A DNA stretch of 56,504 nt from Terriglobales bacterium (GTDB lineage Bacteria > Acidobacteriota > Terriglobia > Terriglobales > Acidobacteriaceae), in assembly GCA_035457425.1 (NCBI GenBank), contig DATIBR010000074.1, positions 1-56,504 of the forward strand, in the 5' to 3' direction. The position numbers and the translations under genes are program-made. Below, piece after piece: positions 38,574 through 55,004 of this stretch; position 1 is the stretch's first letter, and each line of letters begins with the position of its first letter. A model generated the notes under the pieces. That model was not told the origin of the DNA. It ran no database searches and was given only the letters and a program-made list of their open reading frames with translations.

Positions 38574-38617
38574 TGTGACGCGCGTCACAGCCGGGGGTTC
38601 TAGCCCTTCCGTAGGAT
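38574..38617 (+). promoter_or_regulatory. Crp/Fnr operator and promoter of the ccm operon
   Basis: TGTGACGCGCGTCACA (38574-38589) is a perfect 16-bp palindrome. TAGGAT at 38612-38617 can serve as -10, and no -35 is seen. The operator centre (38581.5) is 30 bases before the -10, which places it near -41.5, the class II activator position for CRP and FNR. ccmE starts at 38683. Confidence 0.75.
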
Positions 38618-38682
38618 GGACTTATTCCGCTGCTGCGCCGGTTGAAACGAGGGGACGCAGGGGCGTAAAGTCAGGTCTGTCT

Positions 38683-39177
38683 ATGTCTTCGAACGAGCGC
38701 AGTCGCTACCTCCGGTTCGGCATCGCCACCGCGGTCATCGTGCTCTCACTCGGCTACCTCGCCTTCACCGGGGTGGAGGAGAGCAAGAGCTACTACGTGA
38801 CCATCGCGGAGCTGCGCAAGATGGGCGATGACGCCTACTCGAAGCGGCTGCGGGTGGCGGGCAACGTGGTGCCGGGATCGATCCAGCGGCAGGGCTCGAA
38901 GATCCACTTCGAACTGATCGAGCAGGAACAGAAGCTCGCGGTCATCTACTCGGGGAGCGAAGCGCCTCCGGACACGTTCGTGGACAACTCGCAGGCGCTG
39001 GCCGAGGGCGAGTTCGGGCGCGACGGCGTCTTCCACGCCAAGAAGCTGCAAGCCAAGTGCGCGTCGAAGTACGCGCCGAAAGAAGGCGAAGCCGCCGCGG
39101 CGGGCGCGATGACGACGACCCAGGCTCCGGCGACAACTTCCGCGCCCCAAGCTCCGGCAGCGAAGTCCACCAAGTAA
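38683..39177 (+). CDS. ccmE: Haem chaperone CcmE, CxxxY type
   Basis: A 164-residue membrane-anchored protein: one N-terminal helix (about 10-29), then the periplasmic OB-fold that carries haem covalently to apocytochromes. VAGNVVPGSIQRQG, FELIEQEQKLAVIYSG and ALAEGEFGRDGVFHAKKL match CcmE. Where most CcmE proteins have the haem-binding His in HxxxY, this one has Cys126 in CASKY, the CxxxY variant known from archaea and some Desulfovibrio. The tail is Ala/Thr/Pro-rich. ATG 38683 is chosen because it begins at the anchor; an in-frame start at 38575 would overlap the operator. It is the first gene of ccmEABCD. Confidence 0.9.
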   Translation: MSSNERSRYLRFGIATAVIVLSLGYLAFTGVEESKSYYVTIAELRKMGDDAYSKRLRVAGNVVPGSIQRQGSKIHFELIEQEQKLAVIYSGSEAPPDTFVDNSQALAEGEFGRDGVFHAKKLQAKCASKYAPKEGEAAAAGAMTTTQAPATTSAPQAPAAKSTK

Positions 39178-39180
39178 GTC

Positions 39181-39924
39181 TTGTCCACCACGCCCAACGC
39201 GCCGAGCGGGACGCCGCCGGCCGTCAGCCTTCAGGAAGTCACCAAGCTTTTCGGGCGCTTCGCGGCGCTGCGCGAGGTCACGGCCGAGTTTCCCGCCGGA
39301 CGCCTCTACGCGGTGCTGGGCGAGAACGGCGCGGGGAAGTCCACGCTGCTGCGCATGATGGCGGGGCTCTCGCGGCCGACGCGCGGCGAGCTGCGCGTCT
39401 TCGGCCGGGACCCGCGCGAGGCCGCCCGCCGCGGCGGGCTCGGCTACATGAGCCACTCGTCGTTCCTCTACGACGAGCTCGACTGCCAGGAGAACCTGGC
39501 GTATTTCGCCGGGCTCTATGACATCCATGACCCGCAGGTGTGGGAACGCGCCATCGCCGCCGTCGGGCTGGACCCCAAGCTGGCGCGGCGCGTGGGCGAC
39601 TACTCGCAGGGGATGCGGCAACGGCTCTCGCTGGCGCGCGCGGTGCTGCACGACCCGCAGTTGCTGCTGCTCGACGAGCCGTTCTCGAACCTCGACCTCG
39701 GCTCGGCGGCGGCGATGGCGCAGCTGCTCGGCAAGATGCGCGACCAGGGCAAGACCATCTTCGTGGTGACGCACCAGCCGGCGCACCTGGCCGAGGTCGC
39801 GGACGAATCCATCACGCTGGCGGCGGGCGCGATCACGAGCCGCGGCGTGGGCTCTCGCTCGCGGAGGCGAGACGCCTCCGCGCCGGCCGGCGTGGACGCC
39901 GGCGCTCCGGAGGCGCGGCGATGA
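39181..39924 (+). CDS. ccmA: Haem exporter ATP-binding protein CcmA
   Basis: A 247-residue ABC ATPase of the CcmAB(CD) complex, whose ATP hydrolysis frees holo-CcmE from CcmC. Walker A GENGAGKST, signature YSQGMRQRLSLARAVL, Walker B LLLLDEP and the H-loop VVTHQPAH are complete. The start is TTG three bases after the ccmE stop. The last 25 residues (after ITSRGVG) are Arg/Ala-rich and are encoded by a hairpin-rich repeat at 39861-39903, so the C terminus seems to have been extended by a REP-like insertion. It overlaps ccmB as ATGA. Confidence 0.93.
   Translation: MSTTPNAPSGTPPAVSLQEVTKLFGRFAALREVTAEFPAGRLYAVLGENGAGKSTLLRMMAGLSRPTRGELRVFGRDPREAARRGGLGYMSHSSFLYDELDCQENLAYFAGLYDIHDPQVWERAIAAVGLDPKLARRVGDYSQGMRQRLSLARAVLHDPQLLLLDEPFSNLDLGSAAAMAQLLGKMRDQGKTIFVVTHQPAHLAEVADESITLAAGAITSRGVGSRSRRRDASAPAGVDAGAPEARR
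39861..39903. repeat. REP-like hairpin pair inside the ccmA 3' end
   Basis: GCGGAGGCG-AGA-CGCCTCCGC (39861-39881, nine perfect pairs) is followed by GCCGGCG-TGGA-CGCCGGC (39886-39903, seven pairs). Size, loop style and GC-rich stems resemble the array at 34118-34284, but here the element lies in coding sequence. Confidence 0.65.
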
Positions 39925-40595
39925 GCGCGCTCGTCCACGTCACGCGCACCACGCTGGCGAAGGACATTCGCCTGGAGTGGCGTTCGAAGGATGCGCTCAA
40001 CGGCATGCTGTTCTTCGCGCTGCTGGTGGTGATCATCTTCAGCTTCGCGTTCGACCCGACGGCGGAGGAATCGCGGCAGATGGCGGGCGGGCTGATCTGG
40101 ACCGCCTTCCTGTTCGCCGCAACGGTGGCGCTCAACCAGGCGTGGGCGCGCGAGCTGCGCAACCAGGTGCTCGACGCCTACCGCATCTCGCCGGCGCCGC
40201 CGAACGCGCTGTTCCTCGGCAAGGCGCTGGGGAACTTCCTGTTCATCGCGGTGGTGGAGGCGGCGGTGGTGCCCATCTTCGTGATGTTCTACAACCTGCG
40301 CTCCATCGGCCCGCCGGTGCAGTTGCTGTGGATCTTCCTGCTGGGGACGTGGGCGCTGGTGGTGAACGGGACGTTCTTCGCGGCGCTCTCGCTCCGCACG
40401 CGCAGCCGTGAGATGATGCTGCCGCTCATCCTTTTCCCCATCAGCTTGCCGGCCATCATCGGGATGGTGACGGGCACGACCGCGGTGCTGGTGGGAGAAT
40501 CGCCCAAGCTGGCGATGAGCCTGCTGGTCGGCTACGACGTGGCGTTCACGGCCTTATGTCTGGTCTTATTTGAAACGGTTTTGCACGCGGAATGA
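39921..40595 (+). CDS. ccmB: Haem exporter permease CcmB
   Basis: A 224-residue integral membrane protein with six hydrophobic segments. It is the CcmB subunit that pairs with CcmA in the ABC-type complex releasing haem-loaded CcmE. The opening KDIRLEWRSKDALNGMLFFALLVVIIFSF, LRNQVLDAYRISPAPPNALFLGKALGNFLF and LILFPISLPAIIG are family-typical. ATG 39921 overlaps the ccmA stop. Confidence 0.93.
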   Translation: MSALVHVTRTTLAKDIRLEWRSKDALNGMLFFALLVVIIFSFAFDPTAEESRQMAGGLIWTAFLFAATVALNQAWARELRNQVLDAYRISPAPPNALFLGKALGNFLFIAVVEAAVVPIFVMFYNLRSIGPPVQLLWIFLLGTWALVVNGTFFAALSLRTRSREMMLPLILFPISLPAIIGMVTGTTAVLVGESPKLAMSLLVGYDVAFTALCLVLFETVLHAE

Positions 40596-40602
40596 TCCGA
40601 TC

Positions 40603-41355
40603 ATGAGAAGAGCCTTTCCTATCCTCGCAATCATCACGCTGGCGCTGCTGAGCTACGGCGCGTACCAGGCGCTGGGCAGCTCGCCCAATCCGCTGGAGCC
40701 GTACATCGGCAAGCCCGCGCCTTCCATCTACGTTCCGACGGCGAACACCGCCAAGGAATCCGAGCTGAGCAACGTGTTCCGCATCTTCTATTACCACGTG
40801 CCGTCGGCGTGGGTGGCGTTCCTGCTGTTCTTCACGAACTTCCTGGCGTCGATCGCGTACCTGATCAAGCGCAGGCCAGGCATCGACGCGTTCGCGCTGG
40901 CGACGGCGCAGGTGGGCGTGGTGTTCTGCACCATCGTGCTCGTGACCGGGCCGATCTGGGCGAAGCCGGTGTGGGGCATCTGGTGGACGTGGGACGCGCG
41001 GCTGACTTCGACGCTGGTGCTGTGGCTGATCTACGTGAGCTACCTGCTCTTGCGGCGCTACGCCGCCGGCGGGCAGACGCCGGTGCTGGCGGCGGCGCTG
41101 GCCATCTTCGGTTTCGTGGACGTGCCGCTGGTGTACATGTCCATCCGCTGGTTCCGGACGCAGCATCCGCAGCCGGTGCTGGGCGGCGGTGAAGGTTCGG
41201 GCATCGATCCCGCGATGCTGCACGCGCTGCTCATCAACTTCGCGGCCTTCCTGCTGTTCGGCGTCCTGCTGGTGTGGGTGCGCTACACGATGGAGCGGCT
41301 GCGGCTGGAGATCGAAGAGGCGCACGCCATGGGCGCGGTCAGGGGGACGCGATGA
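40603..41355 (+). CDS. ccmC: Haem-handling protein CcmC
   Basis: A 250-residue membrane protein of the haem-handling family. It loads haem onto CcmE through the periplasmic Trp-rich WWD loop, seen here as GPIWAKPVWGIWWTWDARLTS. The flanking axial histidines are in FYYHVPSAW and MLHALLINF. Six membrane helices are visible. ATG 40603 is chosen; TTG 40570, overlapping ccmB, would add 11 residues. The stop overlaps ccmD as ATGA. Confidence 0.93.
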   Translation: MRRAFPILAIITLALLSYGAYQALGSSPNPLEPYIGKPAPSIYVPTANTAKESELSNVFRIFYYHVPSAWVAFLLFFTNFLASIAYLIKRRPGIDAFALATAQVGVVFCTIVLVTGPIWAKPVWGIWWTWDARLTSTLVLWLIYVSYLLLRRYAAGGQTPVLAAALAIFGFVDVPLVYMSIRWFRTQHPQPVLGGGEGSGIDPAMLHALLINFAAFLLFGVLLVWVRYTMERLRLEIEEAHAMGAVRGTR

Positions 41356-41471
41356 GCTACTTGTACGCCGCGATCGTCGCGACGTGGGCCATCCACATCG
41401 TGTACCTGTTCATCCTGGTGAGCGGCATCCGCAAGCTGCGCCGGGAAGCCGACGAGCTGGAGCGCCGCTAG
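41352..41471 (+). CDS. ccmD: CcmD-like small membrane protein
   Basis: A 39-residue protein: a short N terminus (SYLYAA), one membrane helix (IVATWAIHIVYLFILVSGI) and a charged cytoplasmic tail (RKLRREADELERR). This is the size and layout of CcmD, which stabilises the CcmABC-CcmE complex. The ATG overlaps the ccmC stop. Similarity is mostly in architecture, as usual for this family; position makes the call. Confidence 0.8.
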   Translation: MSYLYAAIVATWAIHIVYLFILVSGIRKLRREADELERR

Positions 41472-42950
41472 ATGAAGCGCTTCGTCGGCGGTTTCCTGCT
41501 GGGAGCGATCGCCGGCGGGCTCGCGGTGTGGGGCTACCTGTCGCGGCCGCACCGCGCGCTGGCCACGCCGGCGGTGTGCTACTCCTGCTTCTGGCAGACG
41601 CAGAGCGCCGCGCTGCGCAAAGACCTGATCGACTTCTACCAGCAGTACCGCAGCCCGGACGAATTCGTGATGGGCGACGTGGCGTACATCCTGTGGCGGG
41701 CGAAGGACCAGCCCAACTGCGACGCCCGGGAGCGCTACCGCGCGATCGCCAGCGACGACAGCGACGGTTACCGCAAGTTCCTGGCGCGGGGCATCCTGGC
41801 GTTCAGCGGGTCGGAGTGCGGCGCGGGACGCCCGCAGGACTTCGGAGCGGCGGCGGAGCAGGCGCGCATGATCGGCCTGGCGGGGGAAGCGAAGCTGCTC
41901 GACGCGCTGGCGCAGAACAAGCCGGCGCCGGAGTTCGGCGACGTCGAGCTGCAAGGCAGCGTGCCGGCGCCGCGCGGCGCGAAGACGCTGATCCTGGGGG
42001 AGTCGCGCATCGAGGTCGCGCCCGACACGCGGCTGGGCGCGCAGGTGGACCGCGTCTCGCGCGACTGGCTGAGCTACCAGCTCAAGTGGGACATGAGCGG
42101 CGCCGCGCTGCCGCCGCAGCAGATCATCGGGTGGCACGAGGGGCGCTTCATCCGGTACATCGTGAACGCCGCGCCGGTGGAGGTGCATCCGCTGAGCGGC
42201 ACGCTGGTCGCGAAGAAGGGCGAGAAGTGGTACGCGCCCGACGAGAACGGCGTCTTCCGGTTCGAGGTGCTGCTCGACAAGGTGGAGTATCCGACGACGC
42301 ATGTCGCGGGGCAGTTCGGCCTGCTGGAGGACACGCACGGCATCTCGGCGCTGGTGAGCCAGGCGATGCGCCGCGGCATGCAGGTGGTGGTGGGCTGCGG
42401 CGACTCCGACGGCAAGGTGAAGGCGGCCTATTACCTGGCGCAGCGCGGCGTGCACGTCATCATGCCGGGCGACCGCTACGACGACGAGCTGGTCGGCTAC
42501 CAGGGCAAGGGCGTGATCCTGGGCACGGCGCCGGTGCGCGCGCAGGGCAACAAGGCCGTGATCGGCGGGCAGCCCGTGCGGTTCGCGCTGGCCGAGACCA
42601 TCGTGGTCGAAGACACCAAGGCGATCTTTCCCATCCAGTACTACGACGCAGGCGCGCGCTACTTCCGGCGGCTGGCGAAGGCCGCGCCGCTGAAGCTGGA
42701 GTTCGTGAACGTGGACGACCAGAACCAGATCGCGCGCGTCCTCGACCGCGCCGACGAACTGAGGGCCACGGCGGTCGCGGTGCGCGTGATGACGAAAGAG
42801 GAGAACGACCGGCTGGTGGCGTGGCTGAGCGTCGCGCCGCAGCGGCGCGCGATCCTGTTCCATTCCGGCCTGTACGAGTTCGCGCAGCCGCTGTTCGAGA
42901 AGTTCCCGCAACAAGTGACGTTCGGCGACCTGCGGCCGAGGTTCGAGTAG
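41472..42950 (+). CDS. Unknown membrane-anchored CxxC protein of the ccm operon
   Basis: A 492-residue protein that starts directly after the ccmD stop with no intergenic base. One N-terminal helix (about 5-23) anchors a periplasmic part that opens with VCYSCFWQTQSAALRKDLIDFYQQY, placing Cys36 and Cys39 just outside the membrane. Further on are alternating alpha/beta segments (MQVVVGCGDSDGKVKAAYYLAQRGVHVIMPGDRYDDEL) suggestive of a Rossmann-like region, and a C terminus ending in FGDLRPRFE. I do not recognise the family. The CxxC followed by an amphipathic helix recalls CcmH, the thiol reductase of cytochrome maturation, but the rest is unlike it. Context suggests a role in cytochrome c maturation (inference). 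Confidence 0.8.
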   Translation: MKRFVGGFLLGAIAGGLAVWGYLSRPHRALATPAVCYSCFWQTQSAALRKDLIDFYQQYRSPDEFVMGDVAYILWRAKDQPNCDARERYRAIASDDSDGYRKFLARGILAFSGSECGAGRPQDFGAAAEQARMIGLAGEAKLLDALAQNKPAPEFGDVELQGSVPAPRGAKTLILGESRIEVAPDTRLGAQVDRVSRDWLSYQLKWDMSGAALPPQQIIGWHEGRFIRYIVNAAPVEVHPLSGTLVAKKGEKWYAPDENGVFRFEVLLDKVEYPTTHVAGQFGLLEDTHGISALVSQAMRRGMQVVVGCGDSDGKVKAAYYLAQRGVHVIMPGDRYDDELVGYQGKGVILGTAPVRAQGNKAVIGGQPVRFALAETIVVEDTKAIFPIQYYDAGARYFRRLAKAAPLKLEFVNVDDQNQIARVLDRADELRATAVAVRVMTKEENDRLVAWLSVAPQRRAILFHSGLYEFAQPLFEKFPQQVTFGDLRPRFE

Positions 42951-42958
42951 GGGAAAGA

Positions 42959-43051: not shown

Positions 43052-43067
43052 TGTGACACCTGACCCA
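43052..43067. promoter_or_regulatory. Upstream degenerate Crp/Fnr site
   Basis: TGTGACACCTGACCCA has a perfect left arm and a 4-of-6 right arm. It lies 32 bases (about three helical turns) before the strong site at 43084, so both would be on the same face of the DNA. Confidence 0.45.
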
Positions 43068-43083: not shown

Positions 43084-43129
43084 TGTGACGCACGTCACAG
43101 AGGACCCTTGGTCGCTATGGGAGTATCAT
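43084..43129 (+). promoter_or_regulatory. Crp/Fnr operator and promoter of the regulator gene
   Basis: TGTGACGCACGTCACA (43084-43099) has seven-base perfect arms. TATCAT at 43124-43129 is a good -10 about 33 bases from the operator centre, and no -35 is seen. The regulator gene starts at 43157, so it probably controls itself. Confidence 0.7.
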
Positions 43130-43156: not shown

Positions 43157-43867
43157 ATGCGCTCACCGTACGGGCTCGACATCATCGAGAGCTGTATCAC
43201 CTGTCCATTCCGCGAAGACCGCCTGTTCTGCAACCTTTCCAACGCTGCCGTAAAAGAGCTGCAGGAGATCACCTCCGCGGCGGCGTATCCGAAAGGGGCG
43301 CTGTTGTTCGTGGAAGGGCAGGCGCCGCGCGGCATTTTCATCCTGTGCGGCGGCAAGGCGAAGCTTTCGACCTCGGCTTCGGACGGCAAGACGTTGATCC
43401 TGAAGATCGCGGAGCCCGGGGAGGTGCTGGGGCTGAGCGCGACGGTCTCGGGGCGGGAGTACGAGGTGACGGTCGAGCTGCTGGAGCCGGCGCAGGCGAA
43501 GTTCGTGCCGCGCGACAAGTTCCTGAACTTCCTGAAGCACCATGCGGATGCCGCTTTCCAGGTGGCGAACCAGCTCTCCAACAGCTATCACACAGCGTAC
43601 GAGGAGATCCGGTCGCTCGGGCTCTCGCGCTCGGCGACGGCGAAGCTGGCCAAGCTGCTGCTGGAGTGGTCGGCCGGGCATGACGGCAAGGAGCCGCGCA
43701 TCACCGTGACGCTGACGCACGAGGAGATGGCGCAGCTCATCGGCGCTTCGCGCGAGACGGTCACGCGCGCCTTTGCCGACCTGAAGAAGCGCAAGCTGAT
43801 CGACGTGAAGGGTTCGGCGGTCGTGCTGCGCGACAAGAACAAGCTGGAGCAGATGGTCGGTTCGTAG
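43157..43867 (+). CDS. Crp/Fnr-family regulator with N-terminal cysteine cluster
   Basis: About 236 residues. An N-terminal Cys cluster (C13-x2-C16-x8-C25, in ESCITCPFREDRLFC) precedes the cyclic-nucleotide-binding-like beta roll (YPKGALLFVEGQAPRGIFILCGG, with Cys64), the dimer helix, and a C-terminal winged helix whose recognition helix reads IGASRETVTRAFADLKKR. The Arg-Glu-x-x-x-Arg of CRP (which reads TGTGA) is matched rather than the FNR type. The cysteines could hold an Fe-S cluster as in FNR, making it an O2 or NO sensor (inference). ATG 43157 is preferred; the in-frame ATG 43085 lies in the operator. It probably governs the TGTGAC-N4-GTCACA sites around it. Confidence 0.9.
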   Translation: MRSPYGLDIIESCITCPFREDRLFCNLSNAAVKELQEITSAAAYPKGALLFVEGQAPRGIFILCGGKAKLSTSASDGKTLILKIAEPGEVLGLSATVSGREYEVTVELLEPAQAKFVPRDKFLNFLKHHADAAFQVANQLSNSYHTAYEEIRSLGLSRSATAKLAKLLLEWSAGHDGKEPRITVTLTHEEMAQLIGASRETVTRAFADLKKRKLIDVKGSAVVLRDKNKLEQMVGS

Positions 43868-43907: not shown

Positions 43908-43923
43908 TGTGACACCTGTCACA
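43908..43923 (+). promoter_or_regulatory. Crp/Fnr operator upstream of the ywiC-like gene
   Basis: TGTGACACCTGTCACA has perfect six-base arms. It lies 56-71 bases before the GTG start at 43979. No convincing -10 is seen at the expected distance. Confidence 0.7.
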
Positions 43924-43978: not shown

Positions 43979-44815
43979 GTGACTAGCAAGGTTCTAGTTG
44001 AATCTGCTCTCCCCGCGCCGGTGCGCAGCGCCGTCCTGTGGCCGCGCGAACATGGCGCGTGGGGCCTGCTGGCCGCACCTCTGGTACTGGGCACCGCGGT
44101 GGCCGCGCGTGCCGGCGGAGACCGCTGGATGGCGTGGGGCGCGATCGTGGTCGCGGCCCTGGCCGTCTTCCTGGCCCGCACGCCTCTCGATGCGCTGCTC
44201 GGCGTGGGGATCGTGCGCGCGAACGGGCCGGCGGAGGTCGCAGCGGCGCGCGCACGCCTGGCGCTCTGGGCAACGGTCGCGGCGGTCGCCGGCGGCGTGA
44301 GCCTGCTCTTCGTCTCCTACAAGATCCTGGGGCTGTTTGCCGCGATCGGCCTTGCGGGCTACGCGACGCAGTGGCTGCTGACGCGCAGCGAATCGCAGCT
44401 CGTCGTCGCCGTGGCGTTCGCGGTGGGCGCGCCGGCGGCATACGTTGGGCTATGCGGCCGCGCCGACGGCATGGCGCTCGAGCTGGCGGTGCTGGCCTCC
44501 GCGCTCACCCTGAACCAGGTCGCCTACGTCCAGGTCGAGATCGACGCATTGCGGCACGCGGGACGGCGCGCCGACCTTCGCGCCGGCTGGCTGTTCCTCA
44601 TGCTGCAGGCCGCCATACTGGCAGCGCTGCTGTGGGCGTGGCAACAGGGAGAGCTGCCGCTGCTGGCGGTGCTCGGGTTCGTGCCGCTGCTGGCGCGCGG
44701 GTTCTGGCGGTTCGCGCACACGCCCAAGCGGGTCGCGCTCAAGCGCTTGGGGTTCACGGAACTGGCGTACACCGCGATCGCAGTGGTGCTGATCGCGCTC
44801 GGAGTCTCCCTGTGA
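43979..44815 (+). CDS. YwiC-like membrane protein
   Basis: A 278-residue protein with about eight to nine membrane helices. The opening WPREHGAWGLLAAPLVLG carries the PREHGAW hallmark of the YwiC-like family. In Bacillus subtilis ywiC lies in the nitrate-respiration region beside fnr and narGHJI, which parallels its place here next to a Crp/Fnr gene and nitrogen-oxide enzymes. The molecular role is unknown. The GTG start is the best in-frame choice, with a weak ribosome binding site. A 25-codon frame (44815-44892) follows with a TGATG overlap, but there is no evidence that it codes. Confidence 0.8.
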   Translation: MTSKVLVESALPAPVRSAVLWPREHGAWGLLAAPLVLGTAVAARAGGDRWMAWGAIVVAALAVFLARTPLDALLGVGIVRANGPAEVAAARARLALWATVAAVAGGVSLLFVSYKILGLFAAIGLAGYATQWLLTRSESQLVVAVAFAVGAPAAYVGLCGRADGMALELAVLASALTLNQVAYVQVEIDALRHAGRRADLRAGWLFLMLQAAILAALLWAWQQGELPLLAVLGFVPLLARGFWRFAHTPKRVALKRLGFTELAYTAIAVVLIALGVSL

Positions 44816-44894
44816 TGGACATCACGAGCGGGGGTACGAGCGGTCACGGCGCAGGCAATACCGGGCCGATAGATTCCGGGAAGAAGGAGTGATC

Positions 44895-45626
44895 ATGACG
44901 ACGAAGACAGCGAAGACGGTAGCTGAGATCGCGCTGGAGACGCCGCGCGCCGCGAGCCTCTTCGAAGAGTTCGGGATCGACTACTGCTGCGGAGGCGAGA
45001 AGACGCTGCAGGAAGCGTGCAACGAGGCGCGGGTGGCGCTGGCCGAGGTCGAGGCCGCGCTGCAGGAAGTACGGGACGCGCGCGAGAGCGCGGAGGCCCG
45101 GGACTGGAGCGCGGAATCGCTGGCGCAGCTGGTGGCGCACATCGTGAATTTCCACCACCAATACGTGCGGCGCGCGCTGCCGCGCATCGAGCAATTGCTG
45201 GGCAGCGTGTTGAGCGCGCACGGGCAGAAACATCACGACCTGGCGAAGGTGCAGCGGCACTTCCACGTGCTGGCGGACGAGATGGTGCGCCACATGATGA
45301 AGGAAGAGCAGGTGCTCTTTCCGTACATCATCCGGATGGAAGACGCGGCGGCGGGTGGCGAGGCGGTGGCGGCGCCGACTTTCGGCACGGTGAAGAACCC
45401 GATCCGGATGATGCGGTCCGAACACGACTCGATCGGGCTCGAGCTGCGGGAGATCCGCAAGCTGAGCAAGGATTACGACACGCCCAAGGAGCAATGCAAT
45501 TCGTTCCGGGCGCTGTACAACGCGCTGGAGGAATTCGAGCGCGAGCGCAACCAGCACATCCACCTGGAGAACGAGATCCTGTTCCCGCGGGCGGAAGCGC
45601 TGGAAGCGCGGGCCGGCAGGCAATAA
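44895..45626 (+). CDS. ric: Iron-sulfur cluster repair di-iron protein RIC (ScdA/YtfE)
   Basis: A 243-residue protein with the DUF542 N-terminal domain (LETPRAASLFEEFGIDYCCGGEKTL, with the CCGG motif) and a C-terminal hemerythrin-like di-iron domain: HIVNFHHQYVRRALPRI, FHVLADEMVRHMMKEEQVLFPYI, SEHDSIGLELREI and HIHLENEILFPRAEAL supply the His and Glu ligands. RIC repairs Fe-S clusters damaged by NO or peroxide. The placement before nitrite and NO reductase genes fits NO defence. ATG 44895 has AAGGAG (44884-44889) upstream. The next gene follows after ten bases. Confidence 0.93.
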   Translation: MTTKTAKTVAEIALETPRAASLFEEFGIDYCCGGEKTLQEACNEARVALAEVEAALQEVRDARESAEARDWSAESLAQLVAHIVNFHHQYVRRALPRIEQLLGSVLSAHGQKHHDLAKVQRHFHVLADEMVRHMMKEEQVLFPYIIRMEDAAAGGEAVAAPTFGTVKNPIRMMRSEHDSIGLELREIRKLSKDYDTPKEQCNSFRALYNALEEFERERNQHIHLENEILFPRAEALEARAGRQ

Positions 45627-45636
45627 GGGGGAAGGT

Positions 45637-46810: not shown

Positions 46811-46853
46811 GCGGACTTAAGTCACAGCCTATCGTCTCACGACCTTTCATGAT
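46811..46853 (+). promoter_or_regulatory. Weak Crp/Fnr site and -10 before nirK
   Basis: GCGGACTTAAGTCACA (46811-46826) has a perfect right arm and a 3-of-6 left arm. CATGAT at 46848-46853 lies 29.5 bases from its centre, the class II spacing seen at stronger sites. Confidence 0.45.
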
Positions 46854-46877
46854 GAAGGTGTCATGGAGGGTACGACG

Positions 46878-48761
46878 ATGGAGCGTATTCATAGATCCAG
46901 GCTGGTAGTGACGGCGGCCGCGATGCTGCTGCTGAGCGTGGCGGCGGTGGGACAGCAAACGCACGAGATGCCGGCGGCGAAGAGCGGAGCGGCCGTCAAC
47001 ATCGTGCGCGACCCGGCGGAGGTGCCGCCGCCGGTCGGCGATCGCGCTCCGGCGACGGTCAGGATCCAGCTCGTTTCGAAGGAAGTGGTGGGCACGCTGG
47101 ATGCGCAGGCGGGCACCACGTTCCGTTACTGGACGTTCAACGGCAAGGTGCCGGGGCCGATGATCCGCGTGCGGGAGGGCGACACCATCGAGGTGAGCCT
47201 GCGCAACGAGCCGGGCAGCGCGATGGTCCACTCCATCGACTTTCACGCCGCGATGGGACCGGGCGGCGGCGCGGCCCTGACGCAGGTGACCCCGGGGCAG
47301 GAGAAGACGTTCACTTTCGTGGCGGCGACTCCCGGGCTCTATGTGTACCACTGCGGCACGCCGATGATCGGCGACCACATCGCCAACGGCATGTACGGGC
47401 TGATCCTGGTGGAGCCGGCGGGCGGGCTGCCGAAGGTCGACCACGAATACTACGTCATGCAGGGGGAGATCTACACCGCAGGACCGAAGGGGAAGAGCGG
47501 ACTGCAGGCCTTCAGCGAAGCGAAGCTGCTGGCGGAGCAGCCCGACTATGTAGTGTTCAACGGCGCGGTCGACTCGCTCACCGGCAAGTACACACTGAAG
47601 TCGAAGACGGGCGAGACGGTGCGGCTGCTGTTCGGCAATGCCGGCCCCAACCTGACGTCGTCGTTCCACGTGGTGGGGCACATCTTCAGCAAAGATTACG
47701 TGCTGGGCGGGCTCGAATCGCCGCCCGTGACCGGCATCCAGACCATCAGCGCGCCGGCGGGCGGGGCCACCCTGGTCGAGATGGTGACCAACATGCCGGG
47801 CAAGTACCCCTTCATGGACCATGCGATGGCGCGCATGCCGAAGGGGTTGATGGGGATGCTGGCGGTCGAGGGTGTGGCTGTGGCGGATTACATGCATCCG
47901 GGGCCGGCGCCGGTGACGGCGGCTGCGGGCCCGGCGCCGCAAGCGATGATCGTGGCGCAGGACGACGCCGTGCCGGCGACGCAGAGTGCGGGCACCGGCG
48001 TCCTCGCCATGCTGCCGCACGACGAGGCGCCGGAGAGCGGGACGGCCGCGACGACGGAGCCGGCCGCGAAGCCGGTGGCGACGGTGCGCACGAATGAGCT
48101 TAGCGGCTGTCTGCACCTGGCGCCGGGTACTCGGCAATTGCGGCTCACGGCGTTCCGCTCCGGCACGAGCTACGACTTGGAGCCGCGGGCAGGCCTGCTG
48201 AGCGAACACCCGCTCCTGTTCGCCGACAACCTGAACACCCTGGTGCAGGTGAATGGCCGCTTCGAACCGGCGCAGGGAAAACGGCGCTTCGCGGTAGAGG
48301 CGGTGACGCCGCTGGCACCGACCTGCCACCCGCAGGGCTCGCTCGCGGCGTTGCGGCGGGCGGCGCAGGCGAAGATGGTGCGGACTGCGGTCGAGGGAGC
48401 GCGCGGCAGGGTGGGCGCGACGGTCAACATGAGCGAGATGGCGTTCCTTCAGCGCCAGGTGACGATCGAGGCGGGGCAGAGCGTGCTGTGGCGGAACACT
48501 TCGCAGGTCACGCACGATGTCGTGACCAACGTGGCTCGGGTGGCGATTGCGGCGCACGTGCGCACCCCGAACGGCGCCGCGATGTTCGACTCGGGCCACA
48601 TCCAGCCGGGCGCGAACTACCAGCGCACTTTTAACGTGCCGGGCATTTATAAGTACGTCTGCACGCTGCATGAGACCGGCGGGATGATCGGAGTGGTGAT
48701 CGTGAAGCCGGCGCCGGGAAGGACCGAGCCGGCGGTCATGACGGCCGCAGCGGGCAAGTAG
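46878..48761 (+). CDS. nirK: Copper nitrite reductase with OB-like and cupredoxin extensions
   Basis: About 627 residues, periplasmic (signal peptide 1-26). Residues about 55-345 form the two-cupredoxin NirK core that reduces nitrite to NO. Type 1 copper ligands are His118, Cys159, His167 and Met172; type 2 ligands are His123, His158 and His315 (MDH); catalytic Asp121 and His268 (VGH) are in place. About residues 400-490 form an extra domain (SGCLHLAPGTRQLRLTAF, VNGRF) of OB/DUF5818 style. About residues 530-610 are a plastocyanin-like cupredoxin (VTHDVV, YVCTLHETGGMIG) with a full His-Cys-His-Met set, likely an electron donor. ATG 46878 is preferred over 46863 because GGAGGG lies seven bases upstream. 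Confidence 0.9.
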   Translation: MERIHRSRLVVTAAAMLLLSVAAVGQQTHEMPAAKSGAAVNIVRDPAEVPPPVGDRAPATVRIQLVSKEVVGTLDAQAGTTFRYWTFNGKVPGPMIRVREGDTIEVSLRNEPGSAMVHSIDFHAAMGPGGGAALTQVTPGQEKTFTFVAATPGLYVYHCGTPMIGDHIANGMYGLILVEPAGGLPKVDHEYYVMQGEIYTAGPKGKSGLQAFSEAKLLAEQPDYVVFNGAVDSLTGKYTLKSKTGETVRLLFGNAGPNLTSSFHVVGHIFSKDYVLGGLESPPVTGIQTISAPAGGATLVEMVTNMPGKYPFMDHAMARMPKGLMGMLAVEGVAVADYMHPGPAPVTAAAGPAPQAMIVAQDDAVPATQSAGTGVLAMLPHDEAPESGTAATTEPAAKPVATVRTNELSGCLHLAPGTRQLRLTAFRSGTSYDLEPRAGLLSEHPLLFADNLNTLVQVNGRFEPAQGKRRFAVEAVTPLAPTCHPQGSLAALRRAAQAKMVRTAVEGARGRVGATVNMSEMAFLQRQVTIEAGQSVLWRNTSQVTHDVVTNVARVAIAAHVRTPNGAAMFDSGHIQPGANYQRTFNVPGIYKYVCTLHETGGMIGVVIVKPAPGRTEPAVMTAAAGK

Positions 48762-48883
48762 GCGGACGCGGGCACGAAGGGGGCATCGCGCGGCGGCCTT
48801 CTTGCGGCCGGCAGAACAACATTCGGGCGCTCCGGCGGCTCCAACCCCGGTGGTTGGCAAACTGGAAGGCCTGCGGCGCGCGG

Positions 48884-48927
48884 GACGCCTGCCTTAGAGG
48901 CGTCATGCCGGCCGGGCGATAGATAAT
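48884..48927 (+). promoter_or_regulatory. Inverted repeat and -10 before the NO reductase gene
   Basis: GACGCCT-N7-AGGCGTC (48884-48904) is a perfect 7-7-7 inverted repeat, and GATAAT lies at 48922-48927. The repeat centre falls near -40, an activator position. The sequence is unrelated to the TGTGAC operator, so another regulator or a hairpin is possible. Confidence 0.45.
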
Positions 48928-48955
48928 GGACGGCTGAGATAAAGGAGAGGCAAGC

Positions 48956-51241
48956 ATGTCATACAAGGGGCTGTGGATCGCGTTGGCGGTGGTGATCATC
49001 GCGTCGTTCGCGATCCTGGGAGGTGCGGGGTACAAGGCGCTGAACGCGGCGCCGCCGCTGCCGCGGCAGGTGGCGGCGGAGGACGGGCGCGTGCTGTTCG
49101 AGGGCGCCACCATCCAGAACGGCCAGGGCGTGTGGCAGGCGATGGGCGGGCAGGAAGTCGGGTCGATCTGGGGACACGGCGCCTACGTCGCCCCGGACTG
49201 GACGGCCGACTACCTGCATCGCGAGTCGGTGCTGATGCTCGACGACTGGGCGCAGCAAGCGGGCGCGGCGAACTTTGCGGCGCTGGGTGGAGAGCAGCAG
49301 GGAGCGCTCAAGGCTCGCCTCCAGCGCGTGATGCGCAGCAACACCTACGACCCCGCCTCGGGACGGATCGTCATCGCGAAGGAGCGCGCCGCCGCCTTCG
49401 AGAGACTCGCCGCCTACTACGGCGACGTGTTCGCGAACGGGCGCAACGAATACGCCATCCCGAAAGGGGCGGTGACCGACCCCACGAAGCTGCGCGAGAT
49501 GACGGCGTTCTTCTGGTGGACGGCGTGGGCGTCGTCGACGAACCGGCCGGACCTGGGGGTGAGCTACACCAACAACTGGCCGCACGAGCCGCTGGTGGGG
49601 AACACGCCGACCGGGAGCAACATCGTGTGGAGCGTGATCAGCTTCGTGCTGCTGCTGGCGGGAGTGGGCGGGATGGTGTGGTACTTCGGCTGGCGGGCCG
49701 AGGCGCCGGAGCACGTGGCGCCCGCCACGCATGATCCGTTCCTCGACCTGCAGGCCACGCCGTCGCAGCGCGCCACGACGAAGTACTTCTTCGTGGTCGC
49801 GGCGCTCATCGTGGTGCAGGTGCTGCTGGGGGCCATCACCGCGCACTACGGCGTGGAGGGCTCGGGCTTCTACGGGATCCCGCTCGACCGCTGGCTGCCG
49901 TATTCGGTCGCGCGCACCTGGCACCTGCAACTCGGCCTGTTCTGGATCGCGACCTCATGGCTGGCCACCGGGCTGTTCGTGGCGCCGGCCATCAGCGGCA
50001 AGGAGCCGAAGGGGCAGCGCCTGGGCGTGAACATCCTGTTCGGCGCGGTGCTGCTGGTCGTGGTGGGGTCGCTGACGGGCGAGTGGCTGAGCATCCAGAA
50101 CAAGCTGGGCGGGCTGAACTGGTTCTGGTTCGGCACGCAAGGGTACGAGTACGTGGACCTCGGCCGCTTCTGGCAGATCGCGCTGTTCGGCGGGCTGTGC
50201 TTCTGGCTGTGGCTGATGTGGCGCGGGCTGCGGCCGGCGCTGCAGCGGAAGGACGAAAGCCATTCGCTGCTGCTGTTATTCACCATCGCGTCGATCGCGA
50301 TCCCGCTGTTCTACGGCGCGGGCCTGATGTACGGGCAAAAGACCAGCCTGGTGACGGCAGAGTACTGGCGCTGGTGGGTCGTCCATCTCTGGGTGGAGGG
50401 CTTCTTCGAGGTCTTCGCCACGGTGGTGATCGCGTTCCTGTTCACGCGGCTGGGATTGCTGGCGGTGCGGTCGGCGACGCGCGCCGTGCTGTTCTCCACC
50501 GTCATCTTCCTCTCCGGCGGGATCGTCGGCACCTTCCATCACCTGTACTTCACCGGGGTGCCCGATTACGTGCTGGCGCTGGGCTCGGTGTTCTCGGCGC
50601 TGGAAGTGGTACCGCTGGTGCTGATCGGCTTCGAGGCGTGGGAGAACATTCGCCTCGCGCGCACCGGCGAGCGCGACGCGCGCTGGGTGCGCGCGTATCG
50701 CTGGCCGATCTACTTTTTCGTCGGCGTGGCGTTCTGGAACTTCGTGGGCGCCGGGCTGTTCGGCTTCTTCATCAACCCGCCCATCGCGCTCTACTACATG
50801 CAGGGGCTGAACACGACGCCGGTCCACGGCCATACCGCGCTGTTCGGCGTGTATGGCTTGCTGGGGATCGGGCTCATGCTGTTCTGCCTGCGCGCGCTGC
50901 GTCCGCGGGAGATGTGGAAGTCGGGGGCGCTGACAGTGGCATTCTGGGGCATCAACATCGGCCTGATGGCCATGGTGGCGCTCAGCCTGCTGCCCATCGG
51001 GCTGATGCAGGCGTGGGCGTCGGTGGAATTCGGCACGTGGTACGCGCGCTCGGCGGAGTTCATGCAGACCGGCGTGATGAACCGCCTGCGCTGGATGCGC
51101 ATGTTCGGCGACACCATCTTCGCGGTCGGCGCGCTGGCGCTGGGATGGTTCGTCCTGGGCCTGCTGACCGGGCATTCGCACACCGGGAAGCGGCCGTCGG
51201 TGCTGGAGTACGAGAAGGGCAAGGCAGACGCCGCGGACTGA
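48956..51241 (+). CDS. norZ: Quinol-dependent nitric oxide reductase (qNor)
   Basis: A 761-residue single-subunit NO reductase that turns two NO into N2O with electrons from quinol. The N-terminal region (one helix, then a periplasmic cytochrome c-like fold without CxxCH) is the qNor extension. The catalytic NorB core follows with about 13 helices. WHLQLGLFWIATSW, HLWVEGFFEVFATV, GTFHHLYFTG and VHGHTALFGVYG carry the histidines for haem b, haem b3 and non-haem FeB, with the characteristic glutamates. ATG 48956 has AAAGGAGAGG upstream. It sits after nirK but has its own promoter features, and probably serves both denitrification and NO detoxification. Confidence 0.94.
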   Translation: MSYKGLWIALAVVIIASFAILGGAGYKALNAAPPLPRQVAAEDGRVLFEGATIQNGQGVWQAMGGQEVGSIWGHGAYVAPDWTADYLHRESVLMLDDWAQQAGAANFAALGGEQQGALKARLQRVMRSNTYDPASGRIVIAKERAAAFERLAAYYGDVFANGRNEYAIPKGAVTDPTKLREMTAFFWWTAWASSTNRPDLGVSYTNNWPHEPLVGNTPTGSNIVWSVISFVLLLAGVGGMVWYFGWRAEAPEHVAPATHDPFLDLQATPSQRATTKYFFVVAALIVVQVLLGAITAHYGVEGSGFYGIPLDRWLPYSVARTWHLQLGLFWIATSWLATGLFVAPAISGKEPKGQRLGVNILFGAVLLVVVGSLTGEWLSIQNKLGGLNWFWFGTQGYEYVDLGRFWQIALFGGLCFWLWLMWRGLRPALQRKDESHSLLLLFTIASIAIPLFYGAGLMYGQKTSLVTAEYWRWWVVHLWVEGFFEVFATVVIAFLFTRLGLLAVRSATRAVLFSTVIFLSGGIVGTFHHLYFTGVPDYVLALGSVFSALEVVPLVLIGFEAWENIRLARTGERDARWVRAYRWPIYFFVGVAFWNFVGAGLFGFFINPPIALYYMQGLNTTPVHGHTALFGVYGLLGIGLMLFCLRALRPREMWKSGALTVAFWGINIGLMAMVALSLLPIGLMQAWASVEFGTWYARSAEFMQTGVMNRLRWMRMFGDTIFAVGALALGWFVLGLLTGHSHTGKRPSVLEYEKGKADAAD

Positions 51242-51287: not shown

Positions 51288-51331
51288 GGTGACGCGCGTC
51301 ACAGCCGCCTTTCTGTTGTTCCGGCTAGCAT
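51288..51331 (+). promoter_or_regulatory. Crp/Fnr operator and promoter of the decahaem operon
   Basis: GGTGACGCGCGTCACA (51288-51303) contains the same core as the ccm operator with one arm mismatch. TAGCAT (51326-51331) starts 30.5 bases from the centre, exactly the geometry at ccmE. The next gene starts at 51509, giving a leader of about 170 bases. Confidence 0.7.
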
Positions 51332-51351
51332 GCGAAATCTTCGGGCGGGGG

Positions 51352-51376: not shown

Positions 51377-51508
51377 TCTGAAGGAGTCGTTAAGAACGGC
51401 AACGCAGTTGTGATAAGTTGCAACAACGCCATTTCGCGACACGCAAGCCAGGCAGCGTACGGTACGCAATCCGGCCCCTAACCACAAACGAGCGAGATAG
51501 GGGGACAA

Positions 51509-52474
51509 ATGGCAGCACGGTCTATCCGTCTTCTTCTCCTGCTGTTCCTTTGCGCTTTGCTGGCAGTGGCGTTTGCCGCTGCGCAGAACGCGACCGGCAC
51601 CGCGCCCGCGGCCAAGCCCAAGGCCGAAGAGGTGCGGGGCGCCGAACCCAGCCGCAGCACGAACGCGGAGGACTACGTCGGCACCGATACCTGCAAGGGG
51701 TGCCACGAAGCCGAGTTCAACAGCTACGATCACGGCCCGCACTGGCAGACGGAGAAGAACTCCAAGGGCCTGGGCTGGCAGGGCTGCGAGTCCTGCCACG
51801 GTCCGGGGAAAGCGCACGTGGAGGGCGGCGGCGACAAGACGAAGATCGTCCGCTTTCCGGACCTGAGCGCGGAAAAGGCCAGTCGCGTCTGCCTGGATTG
51901 TCACGAGCGCGGCGAGGACCACACCAACTTCCAGCGCTCCGTGCACCTGACGAACGGCGTGGGCTGCACCAGTTGCCACTCCGTGCACAAGCCGAAGACG
52001 CCGGAGAAGCTGCTGCTCGCCAAGCAGCCGACGCTCTGCTACAGCTGCCACCTGGAGATCAAGCCGGACTTTTCCAAGCCGTTCCACCATCGGGTGAACG
52101 AAGGGCTGGTCGGTTGCACCGACTGCCACAACCCGCACGGCGGGTTCCTGACCAAGCAACTGCGAGCCACGGCGGCACAGGACCAGGTCTGCTTCAAGTG
52201 CCACTCGGAGAAGGCGGGGCCGTTCGTGTTCGAGCACGCACCGCTGAAGACCGAAGGCTGCGTGGCGTGCCACACGCCGCACGGCTCGTCGAACCCGCGG
52301 CTGCTGAAGCGCGCCAACGTGAACCTGCTCTGCCTGGAGTGCCATACCCTCACGGTGGACTCGATCGCGCCAGCCATCCCGAGCTTCCACAACCAGGCGC
52401 AGAAGTACCAGGCATGCACGATGTGCCACACCCAGATCCACGGGTCGAACTTCGACCATATCTTCTTCCGTTAG
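51509..52474 (+). CDS. Decahaem c-type cytochrome (DmsE/MtrA-like)
   Basis: A 321-residue periplasmic protein (signal peptide to about residue 24) with ten CxxCH motifs: CKGCH, CESCH, CLDCH, CTSCH, CYSCH, CTDCH, CFKCH, CVACH, CLECH and CTMCH. Length, haem count and the following MtrB-like barrel gene match the DmsE/MtrA family of Shewanella, in which the decahaem wire sits inside an outer-membrane porin and passes electrons across the outer membrane. The paired surface reductase (MtrC, OmcA or DmsAB) is not in the window. The start ATG has a good AGGGGGAC site. Confidence 0.93.
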   Translation: MAARSIRLLLLLFLCALLAVAFAAAQNATGTAPAAKPKAEEVRGAEPSRSTNAEDYVGTDTCKGCHEAEFNSYDHGPHWQTEKNSKGLGWQGCESCHGPGKAHVEGGGDKTKIVRFPDLSAEKASRVCLDCHERGEDHTNFQRSVHLTNGVGCTSCHSVHKPKTPEKLLLAKQPTLCYSCHLEIKPDFSKPFHHRVNEGLVGCTDCHNPHGGFLTKQLRATAAQDQVCFKCHSEKAGPFVFEHAPLKTEGCVACHTPHGSSNPRLLKRANVNLLCLECHTLTVDSIAPAIPSFHNQAQKYQACTMCHTQIHGSNFDHIFFR

Positions 52475-52486
52475 AAAGGAGCGGTC

Positions 52487-54874
52487 ATGCACACGCGCAG
52501 AGAGAGCACGATGAAGTGGACGCTCCTGGCGGGATGCCTTCTCCTGCTGGTCGCGAGCACGGCGCAGGCGCAGTTCCTGCCGGCGCCGGCGCCGCCGCCG
52601 GAGAGCGAGAAGGGCGAGGTCAAGGACGGCTACCAGATCCACCAGTCCATCGAATTCGGCGGCTACATCTCCGATTTCGACGGCAACGAGTCGCTGTGGG
52701 ACACGTTCGTGAACCAGCACACCGGACCGCGGCTGCTCGGTTTCACGCTCGACATGCACTCGGTCGACCACTCCAACCTGCTGTTCGACGAGCTGCACAG
52801 CGCCAGCTTCGGCTACGGCGGCGATCCCAACAACTGGACGCGGCTGCGCGTCAGCAAGTCGCGGATCTACGACTTCAGCGCGAGCTTCCGCCGCAACCGG
52901 AACTACTGGGATTACAACCTGCTGGCGAATCCGCTGAACCCGCCCACCTCGGTGCCGAACGACCCGGTGGAGGTGTCGCCGCACCGCTTCCAGGTGGTGC
53001 GCCGCATGACGGACCTGAACCTGACCATCCTGCCGCAGTCGAAGATACGGTTCCGCCTGGGCTATTCGCGTAACGTGAGCGAGGGGCCGTCGAACTGGAC
53101 GATCCACGAGGGCACCGAGACCGTGCTCGACCAGTTCTGGCGCAACGGGCTGGATACCTATCGCGCGGGCGTGGACTTCCAGTTCATCCCGCGGACGACC
53201 TTCAGCTACGACCAGTTCTGGAGCTTCTACAAGGGCGACATCTACTGGGTCGACACCAACCACCAGTTCGAGTTGAGTCCGGGCGTTGCGAGCGACCTGG
53301 GCATCGTGTTCAACACGGGCGCGAACCAGCCCTGCGCGCCGCCGGTGATCGTGGGAGGCTTCACCGCTCCGGCCTGCAACCAGTACCTGGACTACGCGCG
53401 CTTCCAGAAGCCGCGCGGCGAGTATCCGGTGGAGCAGTTCAGCTTCCAAAGCAATTACTGGAAGCCGGTGGACCTGTCAGGGCGCTTCTCGTACAGCAGC
53501 TCGGATGGCGATGTGCCGTTCGACAGCGGAGCGGGCTGGGGTGAGTTCTACGACGGGTTCACTTCGCGGTCGCGCACGCGCATCCAGACCACCACCGGCC
53601 CGACGAGGGCGCGACGGGTGAACGCCAACGCCGATCTCGGCCTCACCTGGCATATCACCGACAAGCTCAACTTCGTCGACAGCTTCCGCTGGACCAACTT
53701 CCGCATCCCCGGCAACTGGCAGGAGCTGCAGTCCACGCTGTTTGCGGCGAATGCCGCCACCACGCCGAACACGTTCGATCCGCTGACCTGCCCGGGCGTG
53801 CCGGCGACCTGCCCGCAGCACAACGCCAATTCCGGAGCGGATGTGATCGTCGCCGACCGCAACCGCTTCCTCGGCCAGCAGATCACGATGAACACGGTGG
53901 AGCTCGAGTATGCGCCGTGGCGGCAGTTCGGCGGCTCGCTCGGCTATCGCTACCGGCATCGCGACATCGACGTGCGCGAGTTCGACCTCTACACGCTCAC
54001 GTTCTTCCCGACGCTGCCCAACCGCGGCGCCTGCGCCGGGCAGCCGTTGAATCCTGACGGCTCGTGCTCCGTGCTCACGTTCAACGGGACCGGCGCCACG
54101 AACGTGGTCCCCAGCTTCACCGGGCTCGAGCCGGAGAGCGAAAAGACCGAGATCAACGAGCACTCGCTGCTGTTCGGGCTGTGGTTCCGGCCGGCCCGTT
54201 CGTTCACCGCGCGCTACGACATGGAGTGGATGTACGCCGACAACGTGTTCACCCGCATCAGCCCGCGGCAGCTGCAGCAGGTTCGCCTGCGCGTGAACTG
54301 GGAACCGGCGCAGTGGGCGAACGTCTCGGCGTCGATCAACATCCGGGAGAACCGCAACAACGTGGAGACGGTCGAGAACAAGCAGCACAACCACGCCTAC
54401 AACCTGGGCGTGACGGTGATGCCGCGCGATGCCTGGAGCCTCGACTTCGGCTACAGCTACCAGGACATCTTCTCGGCCACCAACATCTGCTTCGTGGCCA
54501 CCCCGGTGCCGCCCGGGACACTCACCTGCGGCGCGCCCTTCCTCGAGGACGTGTCGTTCTACAGCCAGAAGGTGCAGTTCTTCTCCTTCGGCGCGATGTG
54601 GCGGCCTATCAAGCGCGTGACGACGCAGGTCGGGTATACCGGCACGTTCGCGCGCGGCGATACGCTGATCCTGAATCCGATCGCGCCGCTCGGCCCGCTC
54701 GACTACCGCTACCACCTGCCGGTCGCCGGCATCCGCGTGGAACTGGCGCCGCGGTGGAGCGTGGCAGGCGGCTGGAATTACTACGGCTACAACGAGAAGG
54801 GCGAGGTCGGACCGACGGTGCCGCGCGATTTCAAGGGGAACGTCGGCACACTCGGGGTCCGGTACGCGTTCTAG
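52487..54874 (+). CDS. MtrB/PioB-family outer-membrane beta barrel
   Basis: A 795-residue protein with a signal peptide (KWTLLAGCLLLLVASTAQAQ from about residue 10). The mature chain is a continuous series of amphipathic strands rich in Tyr, Trp, Arg and Asn, ending LGVRYAF with a C-terminal Phe as in outer-membrane barrels. Repeated motifs such as FRLGYSRN, GYRYRHRDIDVREFDLYT and LDFGYSYQD fit the MtrB/PioB family that sheathes a decahaem cytochrome. The N-terminal CxxC of Shewanella MtrB is not seen. It lies 12 bases after the decahaem gene with AAAGGAG before ATG 52487; ATG 52511 is an alternative start. Confidence 0.9.
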   Translation: MHTRRESTMKWTLLAGCLLLLVASTAQAQFLPAPAPPPESEKGEVKDGYQIHQSIEFGGYISDFDGNESLWDTFVNQHTGPRLLGFTLDMHSVDHSNLLFDELHSASFGYGGDPNNWTRLRVSKSRIYDFSASFRRNRNYWDYNLLANPLNPPTSVPNDPVEVSPHRFQVVRRMTDLNLTILPQSKIRFRLGYSRNVSEGPSNWTIHEGTETVLDQFWRNGLDTYRAGVDFQFIPRTTFSYDQFWSFYKGDIYWVDTNHQFELSPGVASDLGIVFNTGANQPCAPPVIVGGFTAPACNQYLDYARFQKPRGEYPVEQFSFQSNYWKPVDLSGRFSYSSSDGDVPFDSGAGWGEFYDGFTSRSRTRIQTTTGPTRARRVNANADLGLTWHITDKLNFVDSFRWTNFRIPGNWQELQSTLFAANAATTPNTFDPLTCPGVPATCPQHNANSGADVIVADRNRFLGQQITMNTVELEYAPWRQFGGSLGYRYRHRDIDVREFDLYTLTFFPTLPNRGACAGQPLNPDGSCSVLTFNGTGATNVVPSFTGLEPESEKTEINEHSLLFGLWFRPARSFTARYDMEWMYADNVFTRISPRQLQQVRLRVNWEPAQWANVSASINIRENRNNVETVENKQHNHAYNLGVTVMPRDAWSLDFGYSYQDIFSATNICFVATPVPPGTLTCGAPFLEDVSFYSQKVQFFSFGAMWRPIKRVTTQVGYTGTFARGDTLILNPIAPLGPLDYRYHLPVAGIRVELAPRWSVAGGWNYYGYNEKGEVGPTVPRDFKGNVGTLGVRYAF

Positions 54875-54967
54875 CCAGACGAGCGGCAGGGGTCGAGCTG
54901 TTGAAACCTCCAACGCTCGAACGCTGAGAAATGCATCAATCACTGTGTAATCAACAACTTGCAATGG

Positions 54968-54982
54968 TGTGACGCCGCCACA
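54968..54982. promoter_or_regulatory. Degenerate Crp/Fnr half-tandem site
   Basis: TGTGACGCCGCCACA has a perfect left arm and a shortened spacer. Its centre is about 21 bases (two turns) before the strong operator at 54989. Confidence 0.35.
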
Positions 54983-54988
54983 ATCTGG

Positions 54989-55004
54989 TGTGACGGCCGT
55001 CACA
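54989..55004 (+). promoter_or_regulatory. Crp/Fnr operator before the cytochrome c-Rieske-b genes
   Basis: TGTGACGGCCGTCACA is a perfect 16-bp palindrome 74 bases before the cytochrome c ATG at 55078. No clear -10 at class II distance; TACAAC (55039-55044) would suit a class I layout. Confidence 0.72.

Follow-up and report, generated by a model that had tools for sequence, protein, structure and literature searches.

A Crp/Fnr-type palindrome as the probable operator of a genome-wide respiratory regulon in a Terriglobales bacterium

Our analysis indicates that a genome-wide respiratory regulon probably has the palindrome TGTGAC-N4-GTCACA as its operator and is controlled by a Crp/Fnr-family protein, encoded at 43157-43867 of the 56,504-nt stretch analyzed here (the window). 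The source genome is that of a Terriglobales bacterium (3.14 Mb, 192 contigs). The computed basis consists of site enrichment, intergenic placement, conservation before orthologues, co-occurrence with the regulator, an autoregulatory footprint and the geometry of -10 hexamers. We infer direct binding, the direction of control, a cysteine-bound cluster and its signal.

Palindromes and genes in the window

A pattern search of the window revealed exact copies of TGTGAC-N4-GTCACA at 38574, 43084, 43908 and 54989, and a copy with one mismatch at 51288. An earlier note on this DNA had described near-perfect palindromes at these five positions, and the description was accurate: all five are intergenic, located 5′ of ccmE, the Crp/Fnr regulator, the ywiC-like gene, the decahaem cytochrome and cytochrome c, respectively. 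Base composition predicts 0.0017 exact matches in the window. With up to two mismatches allowed, the window contained seven matches, while shuffled sequences averaged 1.57 and never exceeded 5. The sites, to which no strand is assigned, and the genes beside them are as follows.

38574-38589, no strand: predicted operator TGTGACGCGCGTCACA, 5′ of ccmE; -10-like TAGGAT at 38612-38617, its centre 33 bp from the site centre
38683-39177, + strand: ccmE (start codon taken from the sequence), first gene of ccmE-ccmA-ccmB-ccmC (38683-41355); Pfam CcmE, ABC_tran, CcmB and Cytochrom_C_asm
43052-43067, no strand: weaker copy with two mismatches, 32 bp upstream of the perfect 43084 site in the regulator promoter
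43084-43099, no strand: predicted operator TGTGACGCACGTCACA, 5′ of the regulator gene (putative autoregulation); TATCAT at 43124-43129, 35 bp from the site centre
43157-43867, + strand: Crp/Fnr-family regulator with Cys13, Cys16, Cys25 and Cys64; recognition helix R199-E200-T-V-T-R204
43908-43923, no strand: predicted operator TGTGACACCTGTCACA, between the regulator and the ywiC-like gene
43979-46716, + strand: ywiC-like gene, RIC/YtfE-type Fe-S repair protein (44889-45626) and TIGR04053 radical SAM protein (45637-46716)
46811-46826, no strand: GCGGACTTAAGTCACA, before nirK; three mismatches, chance level; CATGAT 32 bp downstream of the centre
46863-51241, + strand: Cu nitrite reductase gene nirK (46863-48761) and quinol-type NO reductase gene norZ (48956-51241)
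51288-51303, no strand: predicted operator GGTGACGCGCGTCACA, one mismatch, 5′ of the decahaem gene; -10-like TAGCAT at 51326-51331, 33 bp from the site centre
51509-54874, + strand: DmsE/MtrA-type decahaem cytochrome (51509-52474) and outer-membrane beta-barrel (52487-54874), a predicted electron conduit
54989-55004, no strand: predicted operator TGTGACGGCCGTCACA, 5′ of the cytochrome c-Rieske-cytochrome b genes
55078-56503, + strand: class I cytochrome c, Rieske protein (55399-55866) and cytochrome b6-like gene (55868 to the window end)

Weaker copies had also been proposed at 43052, 46811, 54968 and 35827, of which we retain the first. The 43052 copy is plausible as the second half of a tandem pair with 43084, solely because it adjoins that perfect site in a promoter whose counterparts in homologues have paired sites too. 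The other three are unsupported. About 16 matches of the quality of 46811 are expected in the window by chance; 35827, with two mismatches in the thiC gap (35755-35941), is likewise at chance level; and 54968 reads TGTGAC-N3-GCCACA, which falls outside three mismatches of the operator. Rfam found no riboswitch in the gap 5′ of thiC and no RNA elements in 30000-56504.

The proposal that genes for cytochrome maturation, an outer-membrane conduit and a bc-type complex belong to the regulon is supported, with predicted operators at 38574, 51288 and 54989 preceding them. The decahaem protein contains ten CXXCH motifs and scores 270.7 bits against TIGR03508 (cut-off 192.2). The 795-residue barrel protein matched no MtrB sequence model. 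The reading of the two genes as an outer-membrane electron conduit, which depends on a structural model of moderate quality (pLDDT 63), nevertheless appears to hold because the predicted barrel finds MtrB (6r2q) as its best PDB match, first by five orders of magnitude (TM 0.66). Upstream, between ccmC and the regulator, 41472-42950 encodes a 492-residue protein without a Pfam or NCBIfam match and without CXXCH.

The ywiC-like, RIC/YtfE-type and radical SAM genes probably form an operon behind the 43908 operator. Their order is kept in the same-genus genome G001, where near-exact sites lie before the regulator and between the regulator and ywiC and the flanking DNA has diverged. The RIC protein scores above its NCBIfam cut-off, and the position of this Fe-S repair gene supports part of the idea that the regulon covers NO handling. 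The remaining part fares less well, as nirK and norZ lack a strong operator of their own in the window. NirK is above the NCBIfam cut-off for Cu nitrite reductase, and norZ has both Pfam NO-reductase domains. NirK also bears an extra C-terminal plastocyanin-like (cupredoxin) domain. AT-centred GTGAC-N4-GTC variants (e.g., GTGAC-TTAA-GTC) occur 5′ of several nirK/norZ orthologues (L264, L266, L267 and L279), the 46811-46826 sequence of the window being grouped with them, and norZ of G005 has a tandem operator. Some of these orthologues also lie near another Crp/Fnr paralogue, so the genes of NO reduction may be under separate control, with the AT-centred variants possibly serving as the operator of an NO-responsive regulator.

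Distribution of the sites and promoter geometry

Across the whole genome, we counted 12 exact sites, compared to 0 for a reversed control pattern and ~0.09 expected from base composition. Allowing one mismatch gave 31 sites, compared to 3 for the control. Five of the 31 are in the 38574-55004 cluster, for which the chance expectation is 0.16. Of the examined sequence, 86% is coding, yet 0/31 sites lie within called genes. Thus, with the shuffle counts for the window, the sites are not as frequent in coding or shuffled DNA as they are in gaps. The reversed-pattern control, composition and intergenic placement together rule out a chance origin of the palindromes. No match to TGTGAT-N4-ATCACA, a possible second site class, was detected in the window genome.

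Outside the window, genes of cytochrome maturation (ccmF and ccmH) and haem synthesis (hemE-hemH, and hemA with a CcsA/HemX-like gene) have exact sites before them, as do a hemerythrin-PFOR pair, genes for NfnAB-type flavoprotein subunits and a YifB-type gene. A haem-copper oxidase and a multihaem cytochrome have sites with one mismatch, as do an Rrf2 regulator with cytochrome c and a 2-hydroxyglutaryl-CoA dehydratase adjoining an Fe-S redox subunit. For some sites, the gene that follows (YifB, TonB-type proteins) has no evident link to redox metabolism.

We compared genomes of the family, grouping downstream genes by similarity and taking exact sites in relatives and sites with ≤1 mismatch in the window genome. 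The operator precedes the hemX-hemA operon in six genomes (the window genome among them), the Rrf2 gene in five, and an AhbD/NirJ-like radical SAM gene in four. It precedes NfnA, multihaem cytochromes, cytochrome c-Rieske genes, YifB and the regulator in three genomes each, and hemerythrin-PFOR and ccmE in two each. The site before cytochrome c is also found in relatives G003 and G006. The exact operators before YifB-type Mg-chelatase-like genes in three genomes (G000:C179:7583, L104 and L122) were unexpected yet conserved.

Since sites for haem synthesis, ccm, cytochrome, oxidase, PFOR and NfnAB genes are spread across the genome, the regulon is genome-wide and not one island. The earlier note had tied its sites together as a single regulon within a respiratory island; the single regulon is supported, while the island is too small a scope for the genome-wide set. 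One regulon is the best-supported reading of the operator set: the operator is over-represented, strictly intergenic and placed as for an activator, it recurs before orthologous genes of respiration, and it accompanies the Crp/Fnr gene from genome to genome.

The placement relative to promoters was consistent. TATAAT-like hexamers are concentrated 32-33 bp downstream of the site centre: in the window genome, 13 of 35 oriented sites have one at 31-33 bp, compared to ~1.5 in shuffles. Relatives, counted independently, have hexamers at the same distance at 10 of 23 oriented sites (again ~1.5 in shuffles). A CRP or FNR dimer centred at -41.5 occupies the class II activator position, which places the -10 element at such a distance. 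Within the window, the ccmE and decahaem sites match this spacing, the TATCAT of the regulator site lies 3 bp further on, and 43908 and 54989 have no clear -10 at the expected distance. As the hexamers lie where class II geometry puts them, activation by the operator-bound regulator is the best reading of the promoter sequences. Separate sigma-70 and terminator scans gave no excess over shuffles.

The protein that would bind the operator

The regulator has the CRP/FNR fold, with a sensor beta-roll and a winged helix-turn-helix (HTH). In its recognition helix, R199 and E200 are invariant across all homologues aligned. These residues are the counterparts of those in a published rule, in which R180 reads G3 and E181 reads A6 of TGTGA sites (PMC1274295).

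We examined the upstream regions of 80 regulator homologues (L132-L211), mostly MAGs labelled Acidobacteria or Terriglobia, without assuming a motif. In a count of inverted repeats, GTGAT-N4-ATCAC (26 loci) and TGTGA-N6-TCACA (23 loci) ranked first and second, while shuffles gave ≤3. A site with ≤2 mismatches was found 5′ of 45 of the 80 homologues, compared to 0.9 expected, such that counterparts of the 43084 operator are present at the regulator's own promoter in relatives. In 34 of the 80 promoters, two sites are exactly 22 bp apart, forming a phased tandem. Other spacings cluster at 48-49 and 70-71 bp; the spacing in the window is 32 bp instead.

Site numbers also follow the regulator across genomes. 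In a survey of 299 class genomes, the 80 with a close homologue (E ≤ 1e-60) contained 236 sites versus 4 for the control, the 53 with a distant homologue contained 51 versus 5, and the 165 without a homologue contained 25 versus 11; the comparison ignores shared ancestry and is inflated by it. The pattern also holds within one family, as in the window's own family a site is present in 22/22 genomes with a close homologue and in 1/17 without. Together, these data suggest that the 43157-43867 protein binds the operator directly.

A competing candidate for the main binder, or for a protein sharing the sites, is a Crp/Fnr paralogue that lacks cysteine ligands (G000 contig C181, 18386-19279; L129:4387-5280). 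It is 34-35% identical to the window regulator and has a near-identical recognition helix with the same R-E-x3-R residues, and its contig also carries the near-exact site before the 2-hydroxyglutaryl-CoA dehydratase gene. However, site numbers across genomes follow the close homologue of the window regulator. Moreover, its own 400 bp upstream contain no site within three mismatches, whereas homologues of the window protein have such sites. Because its upstream region is without an operator, we regard the paralogue as a minor rival that is unlikely to be the main binder or to share the sites.

The form of the operator raises a second candidate, as TGTGA-N6-TCACA is the classic CRP operator. The best structural and sequence matches of the regulator are cAMP-binding CRP and GlxR proteins, which would fit control by a cAMP-responsive CRP. 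Yet when aligned to MtbCRP, the regulator is missing the GE and R-T-S cAMP-contact motifs; it scores 55 bits against the NCBIfam CRP model (cut-off 266), and the content of the regulon is respiratory, not catabolic. With the pocket motifs missing, we rejected cAMP-CRP as the binder and consider its control of the sites very improbable.

We also considered the NADH sensor Rex, which has a similar half-site within its published operator TTGTGAA-W4-TTCACAA (PMC2883068) and in other phyla regulates genes of respiration and haem synthesis, hemA and cyd for example. The Rex DNA-binding domain (PF06971) is absent from the window assembly, of which a few per cent is missing, and was found in 1 of 41 genomes searched. 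In addition, nearly all sites have C rather than A at position 6, although the site search itself required C there. Rex was therefore rejected as the binder in the window genome, its gene being absent, and the chance that it owns the sites is negligible. The 43157-43867 protein remains our preferred candidate.

The predicted sensor and its relation to known systems

The four cysteines of the regulator are arranged as C13-X2-C16-X8-C25 plus C64, the last in the beta-roll, and were found in 125 of 129 complete homologues, including proteins without a DNA-binding domain. Residue 13 aligns with position 20 of the NCBIfam FNR model, the first cluster cysteine (a ligand) of E. coli FNR. The score against this model, 41 bits, is below the cut-off of 228. 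The regulator has no C-terminal cysteines and no cysteine at the FNR C122 position. In the AlphaFold model, residues 1-21 have pLDDT <50 and the three-cysteine N-terminus is mostly <50, such that the N-terminus is not resolved.

Directly 3′ of the regulator, 31 of 80 loci encode a protein of ~165 residues that has the regulator's four cysteines and a cyclic-nucleotide-type sensor domain but lacks an HTH (for example, L153:6801-7301, L149:5665-6165 and L111:9568-10068, with ~28 other regulator loci). This companion ends in a basic tail and is often followed by MtrA/MtrB-like genes; it is absent from the window genome. That the four cysteines are kept in ~31 companions lacking a DNA-binding domain argues that they constitute one sensing unit.

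We propose that the four invariant cysteines bear an iron-sulphur cluster sensitive to oxygen and possibly to NO, and that the protein is probably an FNR-like low-oxygen activator of the iron-sulphur type with CRP-like DNA specificity. Another explanation, which we hold to be possible though the less favored, is that the same cysteines sense NO, act as a thiol-redox switch or hold some other metal site. The Fe-S repair gene behind an operator, the nearby nirK and norZ, and a cysteine spacing unlike that of FNR are all consistent with this explanation. Nonetheless, the window shows no convincing operator before nirK or norZ, and the whole target set fits a low-oxygen switch better than NO detoxification.

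In our model, a dimer of the regulator would bind TGTGAC-N4-GTCACA through its CRP-type recognition helix. At many promoters, this dimer would sit in place of the -35 element, ~41.5 bp before the transcription start, and recruit RNA polymerase as a class II activator; it would also bind its own promoter. The predicted targets are genes for haem synthesis, c-type cytochrome maturation, multihaem and bc-type cytochromes, the MtrAB-like conduit, the oxidase, PFOR and NfnAB. If the four cysteines carry an oxygen-labile (or NO-labile) cluster, as is probable, loss of oxygen would consequently switch the regulon on.

More tentatively, the main anaerobic switch of the Acidobacteriota may be a separate FNR lineage whose cluster site is made of three N-terminal cysteines and Cys64 and whose DNA specificity is CRP-like. 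In many species, the co-encoded HTH-less companion could pair with and titrate the regulator, tuning conduits for extracellular electron transfer. Acidobacteria occur in abundance in soils everywhere (PMC5900883), and our results suggest how this large, little-studied group turns on haem, cytochromes and an outer-membrane conduit when oxygen is short. Now that a predicted operator, its candidate regulator, the targets and the promoter geometry are specified, acidobacterial switching of haem, cytochromes and electron export can be tested directly. What is distinctive is the joining of CRP-type DNA specificity to an FNR-like but rearranged cysteine sensor, together with a recurrent sensor-only companion. 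We found no description of such a regulon in Acidobacteriota in the open-licence literature searched, and the main text of a 2018 comparative genome study of Acidobacteria does not mention Fnr.

Among known systems, FNR of E. coli and Aliivibrio fischeri resembles the window regulator in its fold, in the alignment of the first N-terminal cysteine to position 20, in global control of respiration and in a -10 geometry as for class II activation. E. coli FNR uses C20, C23, C29 and C122 as ligands and recognizes TTGAT-N4-ATCAA. The window regulator differs in that the third cysteine follows after X8 rather than X5, the fourth is at 64 in the beta-roll rather than near C122, and a CRP-type helix is paired with TGTGA half-sites, not TTGAT. 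CRP shares the TGTGA-N6-TCACA operator, but the window regulator is without the residues that contact cAMP.

HcpR/HcpR1 of Desulfovibrio is similar in its TGTGA-N6-TCACA operator, in its R-E-x3-R helix and in acting on its own gene (PMC1274295, PMC5701242). The FNR-type cysteine motif is missing from HcpR proteins (PMC1274295), whose role is in nitrosative stress, with hcp and frdX under their control, whereas the window regulator has four invariant cysteines and a predicted haem/cytochrome regulon. Fnr of Bacillus subtilis and B. cereus is FNR-type and is reported to be orthologous to a regulator with a CRP-like motif (PMC1274295); it holds its cluster by C-terminal cysteines (PMC3520743), while the cysteines here are N-terminal, with one in the beta-roll. 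The conduit, in turn, resembles Shewanella MtrAB (6r2q) in its DmsE/MtrA-type decahaem protein, above cut-off, and in a modelled barrel with MtrB as best PDB match. It differs in 11% identity, the lack of an MtrB model match and the absence of an MtrC-type surface cytochrome from the window.

Judged by sequence, the regulator is outside FNR (cysteine pattern, operator and score), CRP (cAMP motifs and score), HcpR (cysteines) and Bacillus Fnr (ligands). By analogy, it would work like FNR and read DNA like CRP, HcpR and, reportedly, the Bacillus Fnr group.
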